From contig JAFUDV010000055.1 of NCBI GenBank assembly GCA_017464245.1, positions 1-34,578 of the forward strand: DNA of 34,578 nt, written 5' to 3'. Positions within the stretch are counted from its first letter, which is position 1. Every line of letters starts with the position of its first letter. Position numbers and translations under genes: made by a program. The stretch comes from Bacteroidales bacterium. Lineage in GTDB: Bacteria > Bacteroidota > Bacteroidia > Bacteroidales > UBA932. The notes beneath the pieces are model-generated. The model was not told where the DNA came from and did no database searches. It saw only the letters and a list, made by a program, of their open reading frames with translations. This document shows positions 28,510-33,759 of the stretch, piece after piece.

Positions 28510-29496
28510 ATGGCAGTGAACGGCAGCAACGCGACCCTTGCGGCGACTCTCCGGCAGATGGCCGGGAGCGGCCGGATCCCGCATGCGATGCTGTTCCACG
28601 AGAATGACGGCGGGGGCGCCTTCCCGCTCATCCTGGACTTCCTGGACGAGGTCTATGGGCACAGCCCGCGGGTGAAGAAGCTCATCCATCCCGACATCCA
28701 CTTCGTCTTCCCGGTCGCCGGCTCCGACAAGCCGGTGTCCGTGCAGTTCATCGGCAAGTTCCGGGAACTCCTGCAGGAGAATCCGTACTTCTTTGAGAAT
28801 GAGCTGTATGCCGCCATCGGCATTGAAGGGAAGCAGAGCAACATCTCGGTCCATGAGGCCCGTTCCATCCTGGAGAGGCTGTCCCTTTCCGCGGTGGAGG
28901 GCGGCTGGCGGACCGTCGTCCTGTACCTGCCCGAGAAGATGAACCAGCAGGCGGCGAACAGCCTTCTGAAAATGGTGGAGGAACCGCCGGAGAAGACCCT
29001 GTTCCTGATGGTCACCCATGCGCCGGAGAAGGTGCTCACGACGATCTCGTCCCGGTGCCTGTTCCTGCGCGTCCTGCCGTTGTCGCGGGAGGAGATGCGC
29101 TCGGTGCATCCGCAGCAGGGCAGGGAAGTGACCGTGCTCACGGACTTGTTCCACGACCTGATGGACGCCCTGGTCCGGAAGGACCTCCTGGGTGCGCTGG
29201 AGACGGGGGAGGCGGTGGCCGCCCTGGATTCCCGCGAGAAGCAGAAGGGCTTCTGCCGGGTGGCCGGTGAAGGGCTGCGGAACCTCTTCCTCCTGCAGCA
29301 GGGCCTGTCCCGGCTCGGGGACATCCCGGAGGACGAGCAGGCTTTCTACGCCGACCTGGCCGGCAAGTTGCGCAAGAATTTTTCCCGCCAGGGTCTTGCG
29401 GCCCTGGACCGGGCGCTCCTGCTGCTGGAGCGGAACGTAAACCAGAAAATCCTGTTCACCGAACTGGTGGACCGGCTCTATATGACTGTGCTATGA
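28510..29496 (+). CDS. holB: DNA polymerase III delta-prime subunit-like protein
   Basis: Clamp-loader subunit of 328 residues. Recognisable parts: SGRIPHAMLFHEN at the start, KKLIHPDIHFVFPV, then EGGWRTVVLYLPEKMNQQAANSLLKMVEEPPEKTLFLMVT and the arginine motif TISSRCLFLRV (sensor region with SRC). The P-loop is degraded (NDGGGAF), as usual for delta-prime, and the zinc-binding cysteines normally found after the P-loop are absent here (the only cysteines are in SSRC and GFCRV). Start ATG 28510 is used; an earlier frame from 28408 lies within the synthase gene. ricT overlaps its stop (ATGATG). Confidence 0.88.
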   Translation: MAVNGSNATLAATLRQMAGSGRIPHAMLFHENDGGGAFPLILDFLDEVYGHSPRVKKLIHPDIHFVFPVAGSDKPVSVQFIGKFRELLQENPYFFENELYAAIGIEGKQSNISVHEARSILERLSLSAVEGGWRTVVLYLPEKMNQQAANSLLKMVEEPPEKTLFLMVTHAPEKVLTTISSRCLFLRVLPLSREEMRSVHPQQGREVTVLTDLFHDLMDALVRKDLLGALETGEAVAALDSREKQKGFCRVAGEGLRNLFLLQQGLSRLGDIPEDEQAFYADLAGKLRKNFSRQGLAALDRALLLLERNVNQKILFTELVDRLYMTVL

Positions 29497-30662
29497 TGGA
29501 TACCAACGAAAACGTCAGATACGACTGCTTCCGCGGCTGTGTGATCAGCGGCAACGAGGAGACGGGGACGGAAGACATCCGCTACCGTCAGGGTTGCTGC
29601 AAGCTGGAGGTGTACAACTACCTCAAGGGCATCGCCCAGGAACAGTACGACAGCCTGTTCGAAGTCCGTTTCAAGAATACCCGCAAAGGAATCTATGTCA
29701 ATGCTTCCGGCCAGAGCGTCAAGACCGGCGACCTGGTGGTCGTGGAGGCCCAGACGGGCCACGACCTGGGGATCGTCACGCTGGAGGGCCCGATCGTGGC
29801 CCGGCAGATGAAGTGCAAGGGCATCGACCCGGAGAAGACGGTGTTCCGGAAGATCTACCGGAAGGCGAAGCCCTACGACATCGAGCGCTGGCAGGACGCC
29901 ATCGCCCGGGAGCAGGAGACGATGATCCGCTCCCGCGTGCTGGCCGCGAACCTGGGCCTGGAGATGAAGATCGGCGACGTGGAGTTCCAGGGGGACGGCA
30001 CGAAGGCCATCTTCTACTATATCGCCGACGGGCGCGTGGACTTCCGCCAGCTCATCAAGGACTTTGCCGAGGAGTTCCATATCCGTGTGGAAATGAAGCA
30101 GATCGGGGCCCGGCAGGAAGCCGGCCTGATCGGCGGGCTGGGCATCTGCGGCCGGGAGCTGTGCTGCGCGAACTACATCACGGAGTTCAAGAGCATCAGC
30201 ACTTCCGCCGCCCGGGTCCAGGACCTTTCCCTGAATCCCCAGAAGCTCGCCGGCCAGTGCGGCAAGCTCAAATGCTGCCTGAACTACGAGGTGGCGGCCT
30301 ACATGGACGCCCATACGCGCATCCCCAAGGTCTCCGAGCCCCTGGAGTTCCAGGACGGCCTGGCCTACCTGGTGAAGACGGACATCCTCCGCGAGACGAT
30401 GTGGTTCTCCTACGAGAAGGGCTCCCTGGCGAAGATGTACCCGCTCCCGGCCTCCGAGGTCCGCGAGATCATCATGATGAACCGCAACGGCCAGAAGCCG
30501 GAGACGCTCCTTCCGGATGTCGCTCCCTCCGCGCCGGAGTTCGTCACCGCCGTGGGCGACGACAGCATCTCCCGCTTCGATGAAGCGCGCAAGAAGAAGC
30601 GCCGGAACAACAAGGGCGGCAACCGGAACCGGAAGAATAATAAACCTAAGAAGGATGCGTAG
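29493..30662 (+). CDS. ricT: PSP1-domain protein RicT (YaaT)
   Basis: A 389-residue protein of the PSP1/RicT family; in Bacillus RicT joins RicA and RicF in an iron-sulfur complex that affects RNase Y and mRNA maturation. The PSP1 core has the paired cysteine blocks GGLGICGRELCCANY and LAGQCGKLKCCLNYE (about 213-270), the likely cluster ligands. The C-terminal 30 residues are very basic (KKKRRNNKGGNRNRKNN) and may contact nucleic acid. Two ATGs in tandem (29493, 29496) are possible starts. In Bacteroidota ricT commonly precedes gldH, as here. Its stop codon TAG (30660-30662) lies inside the left arm of the 167-bp inverted-repeat element. Confidence 0.92.
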   Translation: MMDTNENVRYDCFRGCVISGNEETGTEDIRYRQGCCKLEVYNYLKGIAQEQYDSLFEVRFKNTRKGIYVNASGQSVKTGDLVVVEAQTGHDLGIVTLEGPIVARQMKCKGIDPEKTVFRKIYRKAKPYDIERWQDAIAREQETMIRSRVLAANLGLEMKIGDVEFQGDGTKAIFYYIADGRVDFRQLIKDFAEEFHIRVEMKQIGARQEAGLIGGLGICGRELCCANYITEFKSISTSAARVQDLSLNPQKLAGQCGKLKCCLNYEVAAYMDAHTRIPKVSEPLEFQDGLAYLVKTDILRETMWFSYEKGSLAKMYPLPASEVREIIMMNRNGQKPETLLPDVAPSAPEFVTAVGDDSISRFDEARKKKRRNNKGGNRNRKNNKPKKDA

Positions 30663-30822
30663 ACCGGGCAGGACCTCCACAAACCGTCGCGTCGCGACCC
30701 CTCCCATCAAAGATGGGCCCCTCGAAGGGTTGGCAAACGGGGCCCCCGAAAATCTGTCGATTTTTGGGGTGTCTCGGCCGAGGGTGGCCACAGGTTTGTG
30801 GAGGTCCTACCCGGTCTACGCA
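30656..30822. repeat. 167-bp nested inverted-repeat element between ricT and gldH
   Basis: The 30-base arms 30656-30685 and 30793-30822 are inverted copies with one mismatch. Inside lie more pairings: CCCATC-AAA-GATGGG (30703-30717), an 11-bp stem CCCCGAAAATC with GATTTTTGGGG (30744-30769), and the palindromes GGGGCCCC (30739-30746) and CTCGGCCGAG (30773-30782). It reads as a compact mobile or structured-RNA element. No ORF of its own is apparent, but the gldH frame is open right through it. Confidence 0.8.
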
Positions 30823-31251
30823 GCACTGATTCTGTTACTGGTGACGGGGTGTCGGGAACCGATGTCTGTGGAGCGGTTCGTGAAAGGGGAGGGACCGTAT
30901 ACGTTTTTCGTCGACCTGAGTGACAGTACGGCTACCTACGATTTTGACTTTTACACGCGGGTGGATGCGCCGCTGGATTCGCTGCGGCGGATGCAGGCGC
31001 TGCCTTTGACCGTAACCTGGACGTCGCCGTCGTTCCGTGTGTTCCGGGAGGAGGTGTACCTGCCTCTCGAAGGGCAGACGACCTTCTTCTCCCGGCAGGT
31101 GCGGGCCCCGTACCGGGCCGGTGTGCGGCCGTCGGTATGGGGACAGTGGACGCTGGCGGTCCGGGTGACGGATGCGCCGGAAGGGCTCCGGGGCATGGGG
31201 CTGATCGTAAGGCGGAACAAGGAGGAACAGGGATGGGACACGGAAAACTGA
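30784..31251 (+). CDS. gldH: Gliding-motility-type lipoprotein GldH
   Basis: Lipoprotein of the GldH family, linked to gliding and type IX secretion in Flavobacterium but widely kept in non-gliding Bacteroidota. The lipobox is LVTGC (C23 when starting at GTG 30784), followed by REPMSVERFVKGEGPYTFFVDLSDSTATYDFDFY (in two parts) typical of the family. The start is uncertain: ATG 30655 overlaps the ricT stop and is in frame but puts 65 residues before the lipobox; GTG 30784 or TTG 30796 give a normal signal peptide and about 151-155 residues. The right arm of the inverted-repeat element encodes WRSYPVYA of that peptide. It overlaps trmB by 19 bases. Confidence 0.8.
   Translation: MATGLWRSYPVYAALILLLVTGCREPMSVERFVKGEGPYTFFVDLSDSTATYDFDFYTRVDAPLDSLRRMQALPLTVTWTSPSFRVFREEVYLPLEGQTTFFSRQVRAPYRAGVRPSVWGQWTLAVRVTDAPEGLRGMGLIVRRNKEEQGWDTEN
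31219..31225 (+). promoter_or_regulatory. Strong Shine-Dalgarno sequence for trmB
   Basis: AAGGAGG eight bases before the trmB ATG at 31233, inside the end of gldH. Most genes in this window lack such a site, as usual in Bacteroidota, so it stands out and supports the chosen start. Confidence 0.5.
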
Positions 31252-33628: not shown

Positions 33629-33644
33629 CCGTCCCAAAAACAGA

Positions 33645-33690
33645 AGTGGAGAGATTTGGATTGCTTGCAACCACTCAAAAAAATGCTAAA
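33645..33690 (+). ncRNA. SAM-II (SAM-alpha) riboswitch aptamer
   Basis: The leader has AGTGG (33645-33649) pairing with CCACT, an AGATTTG loop strand, GCTTGCAACCACT, an A-rich linker and the conserved GCTAAA (33685-33690). This order matches the SAM-II class (a compact pseudoknot that binds S-adenosylmethionine) as I know it. It sits upstream of metK, the gene making SAM, so it would provide feedback control. The call is from motif reading, not a covariance search. Confidence 0.8.
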
Positions 33691-33696
33691 TTACAT

Positions 33697-33759
33697 TTCA
33701 TATCAGTGTTTTGTGTTTTTAGCTCCACGTCTGTAGGGGCTAATTTTTTTTGATATGAA
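33697..33759 (+). promoter_or_regulatory. metK expression platform: nested hairpins over the start codon
   Basis: TTCATATCA (33697-33705) pairs perfectly with TGATATGAA (33751-33759), which contains the metK ATG (33755-33757). Nested inside is a terminator-like hairpin, TTAGCTCC (33719-33726) with GGGGCTAA (33736-33743) followed by eight T. TTTAGC at 33718-33723 could instead pair with the aptamer's GCTAAA. Confidence 0.6.

Follow-up and report, generated by a model that had tools for sequence, protein, structure and literature searches.

A dispersed, probably RPE-like coding palindrome with a structured core and site-specific complementary arms in gut Bacteroidales

To our knowledge, in-frame mobile palindromes are described mainly from Rickettsiales, and their mode of insertion there is unexplained. 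Hairpin elements of another kind, the REP and BIME sequences, are found with RAYT-type Y1 transposases, whose genes they flank, and the foot of the REP hairpin reportedly carries a four-nucleotide tag, GTAG or CGTC (PMC3733652). The Rickettsia palindromic elements (RPE) are, in the portions of the sources used here, dispersed palindromes of about 100-150 bp that lie in frame in unrelated protein genes (PMC10969869), with one further in-frame case (PMC5656822). Bacterial MITEs, RUP, BOX and ERIC are short, non-autonomous, dispersed inverted repeats, some of them intragenic, according to the same portion of PMC10969869. Inverted repeats can also be generated by mutation, and the excerpts consulted state that template switching creates stems (PMC8794818) and that, between inverted repeats, it homogenises the arms and inverts the spacers (PMC8604942). 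Long near-perfect inverted repeats also occur in translated genes of Nematomorpha mitochondria (PMC6649704, in part). In the literature searched, outside which most subscription journals lay, no family of such a kind was found reported for the genus concerned, probably Candidatus Cryptobacteroides. Here, we describe one that is represented in the window, i.e., the whole stretch of 34,578 nucleotides that was analysed.

A first-pass annotation of the window, made from the sequence alone, had proposed a 167-bp nested hairpin at 30656-30822. The structure is real; its arms pair at 29 of 30 positions (97%) and enclose 107 nt (Table 1). The RNA folding recommended in that annotation gave -111.1 kcal/mol compared to a mean of -65.6 (sd 4.32) for shuffled sequences (z -10.53), and none of 200 shuffles was as stable. 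Within the extra stretch, a nested hairpin is formed by pairing of 30744-30754 with 30759-30769 (CCCCGAAAATC/GATTTTTGGGG, 30744-30769). In other copies of the element, described below, the GAGGG-type loop of the core 3' end pairs with an upstream CCCTC-type stretch to form a pseudoknot; the window copy has no plain CCCTC partner upstream at the usual place. At the gathering score, Rfam left the element unmatched, and its sole match in the window was a SAM-II riboswitch at 33640-33699, immediately 5' of metK (from 33755).

Table 1. Features of the element and of the ricT-gldH junction in the window.
Feature	Position	Strand	Remarks
ricT	29493..30662	+	Stop codon within the left arm
gldH reading frame	30655..31251	+	Begins at the probable ancestral ATG, crosses the element and ends at the stop
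Left arm	30656..30685	+	Contains the ricT stop and the ancestral gldH start codon minus its first base (comparison with G003)
First core hairpin, GTCGC-GTC-GCGAC, GTCGCGTCGCGAC	30686..30698	+	Recurs in other copies
Second core hairpin, CCCATC-AAA-GATGGG	30703..30717	+	Helix covaries across copies
Extra stretch with nested hairpin	30724..30772	+	No counterpart in the other five aligned copies
Conserved core 3' end, GGCC-GAGGGT-GGCCACAGG	30776..30794	+	
Possible restarts in frame, within the element	GTG 30784, TTG 30796	+	Counted by hand on the sequence
Right arm	30793..30822	+	Complementary to the left arm

The protein labelled gldH in the first-pass annotation is named by neither Pfam nor NCBIfam; it has a lipoprotein-like start, and its gene is flanked by ricT and trmB. 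Its frame had been said to stay open across the element, which is indeed the case, up to the stop at 31251. Related junctions were compared, as the annotation had also recommended. The closest of the 61 genomes searched with RicT, G003 (95% identity over the query), has a ricT-gldH junction (L313) that is empty of the element. There, gldH starts within the final ricT codons (gATGCATAA) and reads MHKLLHILPFLLLFTSC. The window has gATGCGTAG at this place, and the frame from the ATG at 30655 crosses the element into VYAALILLLVTGC. Since the G003 junction is empty and the gldH start lies inside the end of ricT, the window copy sits in frame in the signal-peptide region of gldH. The match of gATGCGTAG to the layout of the G003 junction indicates that the left arm contains ancestral sequence. 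The outer left arm can thus be read as original host sequence, and the CTACGCA of the outer right arm reads as a putative inverted copy of the left TGCGTAG. The present gldH translation possibly starts at the ATG or at one of the two restarts listed in Table 1. This comparison is based on 7 of 30 ricT-gldH loci, and in two of the genomes, G037 and G038 (L315 and L317), trmB follows ricT directly or past a short repeat, with no gldH frame between.

The element is dispersed. Its own genome, an assembly of 97 contigs and 2.37 Mb with 84.7% completeness, was searched for repeats with 201 bases around the element. The annotation had proposed to look for further copies with either the arm or the core, and had considered that the lack of a second copy would speak against a mobile repeat. 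The core was found on other contigs, at ten places including the window; the proposed arm matched itself alone. The idea of a mobile repeat therefore survived through the core, and a search with the arm only would have failed, because the arms are site-specific. Seven of the ten copies lie inside genes, two are intergenic (L009 and L012) and the window copy lies at a gene start. The frame is open in eight of them, the seven in-gene copies and the window copy, which supports the earlier suggestion of a palindromic mobile element inserted in frame, recalling those of Rickettsia. The hosts of the in-gene copies are murB, ribF, the genes for an ABC ATPase (just behind Walker A), an APH/RapZ fusion, a class I/II aminotransferase and a family 2 glycosyltransferase, and that for a protein with a THUMP-like domain. 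Alignment of the MurB host with solved MurB chains covered positions 8-210 and 240-377 of the query, stretches that abut on the chain, and the two aligned stretches of the RibF host are separated by 53 residues compared to 13 in the chain. These split alignments place the inserts between segments that are conserved. In its FAD-binding part, the MurB frame (L024) has another short repeat in frame (CHSERSEES) that is unrelated to the element. When folded, each of the ten copies shows a related core enclosed by long arms that pair with each other; the arm sequences differ between copies. A repeat finder delimited the arms of five own copies at 16-29 nt with 94-97% complementarity, and those of L006 at 55 nt with 73%.

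A covariance model built from nine own cores matched, at E <= 0.01, 76 of 150 genomes, all of them draft metagenome assemblies; for many genomes, the copy numbers given by the model are to be taken as "at least". The matches fall in 75 of the 91 genus genomes, the own genome among them, and in G117, a member of another family of the order, where two matches were found (best E 5.5e-7) that are possibly the product of transfer. A core pattern was present in 64 of the 91 genus genomes, with as many as 29 occurrences in one genome; the reversed pattern was found in none. The orthologous contigs belong mostly to Bacteroidales from ruminant or horse gut. Two are from Candidatus Cryptobacteroides, with 46% and 51% identity, and we infer that this is the host genus; nearer records are labelled Bacteroidales or Bacteroidia. 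Phage carriage was considered and rejected: the one pattern match in viral_contigs lay, as judged by eye, within a long tape-measure-like frame and was taken as chance.

The core consists of two hairpins and a pseudoknot, and this structure is supported by covariation in 106 aligned cores (96 distinct) from 96 chosen loci. Whole-structure covariation was 0.320 compared to 0.099 in shuffled alignments and was reached by none of 500 shuffles; the number of further pair types was not unusual (87 of 500), and these shuffle counts are not probabilities because the alignment rows are related. The pseudoknot helix, which lies outside the alignment model, was paired in 100% of the counted cells, with changes on both sides in two of its five pairs (mainly U-A, G-C and A-U at one, C-G and U-A at the other). 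Two outer hairpin pairs were often unpaired (41 and 59 rows). We read this pattern as selection on the core in the form of RNA or of single-stranded DNA.

For the analysis of reading frames, copies were chosen by the core pattern with a required flank of 300 bp, so that it covers neither the window copy nor those close to the end of a contig, and coding was judged by a codon-usage score. Among the 96 copies, neither flank was coding in 40, one flank in 33, and both flanks on opposite strands in 2. In the remaining 21, both flanks were coding on the same strand, and every one of these copies was in frame and free of stops. The scorer, trained on five window genes, missed the own in-gene copies L013 and L017. 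On average, 53% of the six frames through a copy were open, and an insertion at random would therefore disrupt the frame in most cases. The predicted peptides are drawn from several of the frames, on either strand. The arm-to-arm length modulo 3 is uninformative, since the arm ends are fuzzy.

Although complementary within each copy, the arms are specific to their sites. In 69 copies from eight genomes, the median arm score was 41 for a copy's own pair, 14 for cross-copy pairs of the same genome and 12 for shuffled arms. Cross pairs that scored as high as the own-pair median of their genome numbered 29 of 462 in G065, 2 of 12 in G068, 1 of 132 in G058 and 0 of 184 in the other five genomes. 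In G065, about ten copies have one common 20-bp arm, i.e., the arms travel with the core there; the arms of L233 (score 14) and L234 (score 21), two G068 copies, are weak. The first-pass annotation had suggested a MITE-like or palindromic repeat. A dispersed palindrome it is, but the family is not a strict MITE because, the G065 subfamily excepted, the terminal repeats are not common to the copies. Pairs of copies such as L259/L263, L260/L262, L272/L276 and L284/L285 have unrelated arms despite the identity of the last 40 bases of their cores, and L264-L266 have a common 31-nt core end with different arms, one of them AT-rich. GC content in the outer arms rises with that of the flanks at a distance of 100-200 bp (rho 0.39, p 0.001); in the core it does not (rho -0.30, p 0.012).

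Empty and filled sites were compared at the ABC ATPase locus in 34 sequences, the own one and 33 of 78. The site is empty in L097 (GCTTCCGGG-GCTGCCGTC) and filled in L098 with both flanks intact; in L098, CCCGGAA, the inverse of TTCCGGG, was added behind the core. Unambiguously empty sites are few, and L097 may itself have arisen by deletion. No target-site duplication was seen by eye at the two sites inspected, L097/L098 and the window junction. A fixed polarity of copying, 3' of the core, was dropped because an inverted copy in L190 reads on the other side. Scar-like remnants, with the arms or one core end present and the rest missing, were observed in L093, L112, L291 and L295, suggesting loss by deletion; the first three had been considered as empty sites and were reread as likely scars. 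The ABC loop behind Walker A (L093-L124) is an insertion hot spot, where other palindromic or repeat inserts (e.g., L118/L123/L120, L109 and L099) and a CHSERSE-type repeat (L104/L105) were also found.

The two arms of a copy evolve jointly. Ten pairwise comparisons of a site between species, not mutually independent because sequences recur in them, gave 17 double compensated changes versus 23 one-sided changes (8 left, 15 right) and 2 both-sided changes without pairing. L026 and L305 differ by five right-only changes and none compensated, and L113 and L119 by one left-only change. The sole clear core flip is at the RapZ site: the arms of L026 and L306 are similar and their unusual first hairpin is the same, but their cores lie in opposite orientations. 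Covariation in a long stem is to be regarded with caution, since template switching may produce it as well as selection on an RNA.

The family is probably an RPE-like coding palindrome that is non-autonomous, with arms made and kept by snap-back template switching on the flanking DNA. The core would move as RNA or single-stranded DNA and would be recognised by an enzyme supplied in trans. At the inserted core, the growing DNA end would snap back, copy about 10-25 nt of the flanking host sequence in reverse and then rejoin. Later template switching from arm to arm would re-homogenise the arms and could flip the core. Selection would remove the insertions that break the frame, and in-frame ones in tolerant loops would survive in genes. 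As only these would survive, each may lengthen its host protein by a loop of about 30-50 residues.

Other explanations were weighed. The arms might be the element's own closing stem, selected for pairing in a functional RNA or DNA structure and diverging by compensatory change, so that the match to the host flank would be incidental. The covariation of the core under selection, the arms that co-vary between species at the same site, the common arms of one G065 subfamily and the many left arms that finish in similar C-rich stretches before an AAAC-type end are all consistent with such a stem. We nevertheless consider it unlikely: identical core ends carry unrelated arms within one genome, the GC content of the outer arms tracks the flanks, L098 holds the inverse of the host flank of L097, and the ricT stop lies in the arm of the window copy. 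It is even more improbable that the element is removed from the mRNA or skipped by the ribosome, in the manner of an intron or a bypass, with the arms joining its ends. Paired arms would draw both ends together, and murB and ribF are among the hosts, but removal would not need the open frames seen in 21 of the 21 scored in-gene copies, when an average of just over half of the six frames is open through a copy. The annotation had also offered a structured mRNA segment tuning gldH and trmB, to which we give almost no credence as the reason for the existence of the element, notwithstanding a strong fold that adjoins the gene start and the possible restarts inside it. Regulation is not supported as that reason, since related cores lie in unrelated genes and in both orientations; the element has no Rfam match. 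In view of the dispersed core and the empty junction of the closest relative, G003, a regulatory gldH leader was rejected. The window copy may still have a local effect on the translation of gldH.

Within the preferred reading, a non-autonomous coding palindrome served in trans, the enzyme could be a RAYT-type Y1 transposase, as for REP, a sub-case that we regard as rather doubtful. RAYT genes were present in 58 of the 64 genomes with the core pattern versus 10 of the 27 without it (Fisher p 3e-7, Spearman 0.53, kinship uncorrected). Against this co-occurrence, the own genome, with its ten copies, gave no RAYT match at E <= 0.001, six genomes have the element without RAYT, and model matches lie near only 1 of 30 RAYT loci (L217). 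At that locus (L217:510-915, in G047), two model matches 343 bp apart are located upstream of the RAYT gene. A reverse transcriptase (PF00078), the enzyme type of group II introns and retrons, was rejected as a partner, as it was found in 4 of 12 high-copy versus 4 of 6 zero-copy congeners and not in the own genome.

The comparison with the described systems can now be made. Like REP/BIME, the family is composed of hairpin elements and co-occurs with RAYT at the genome level, but its members do not as a rule flank the RAYT gene. The family also differs from REP in being larger, in lying in genes and in having a pseudoknot. It shares with RPE the palindromic nature, the dispersal and the in-frame location inside genes, in a different bacterial phylum. 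The conserved peptide of one frame attributed to RPE in the consulted portion of PMC10969869 has no equivalent, as several frames on both strands are used here. For this reason the family is not filed as RPE, with which it was compared by description. Site-specific arms, a feature of this family, are not mentioned for RPE in the portions of PMC10969869 and PMC5656822 considered. With bacterial MITEs, RUP, BOX and ERIC, the likeness lies in the short, non-autonomous, dispersed and partly intragenic inverted repeats (PMC10969869, in part); shared terminal inverted repeats set MITEs apart. Template switching between inverted repeats, as outlined in the excerpts of PMC8794818 and PMC8604942, resembles what is proposed here in the creation and maintenance of stems, the homogenisation of arms and the inversion of spacers. 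It is, however, a mutation process and not an element, and would act here on a mobile core. The coding palindromes of Nematomorpha mitochondria are alike in structure and in lying within protein genes that are translated but, unlike this family, no common dispersed core is described for them in the part of PMC6649704 consulted.

More tentatively, and with the odds rather against it, the family may be a new kind of mobile element, one that would move as pseudoknotted RNA or single-stranded DNA, build its terminal inverted repeats anew for each target by snap-back copying, use these arms for repair and core inversion, and add in-frame loops to conserved proteins throughout the genus. The family is present in most of the 91 genus genomes, and many copies have still-identical cores. 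With such traces of insertion as target-matching arms, the flip and the scars, the spread of coding palindromes and the gain of protein loops become testable.
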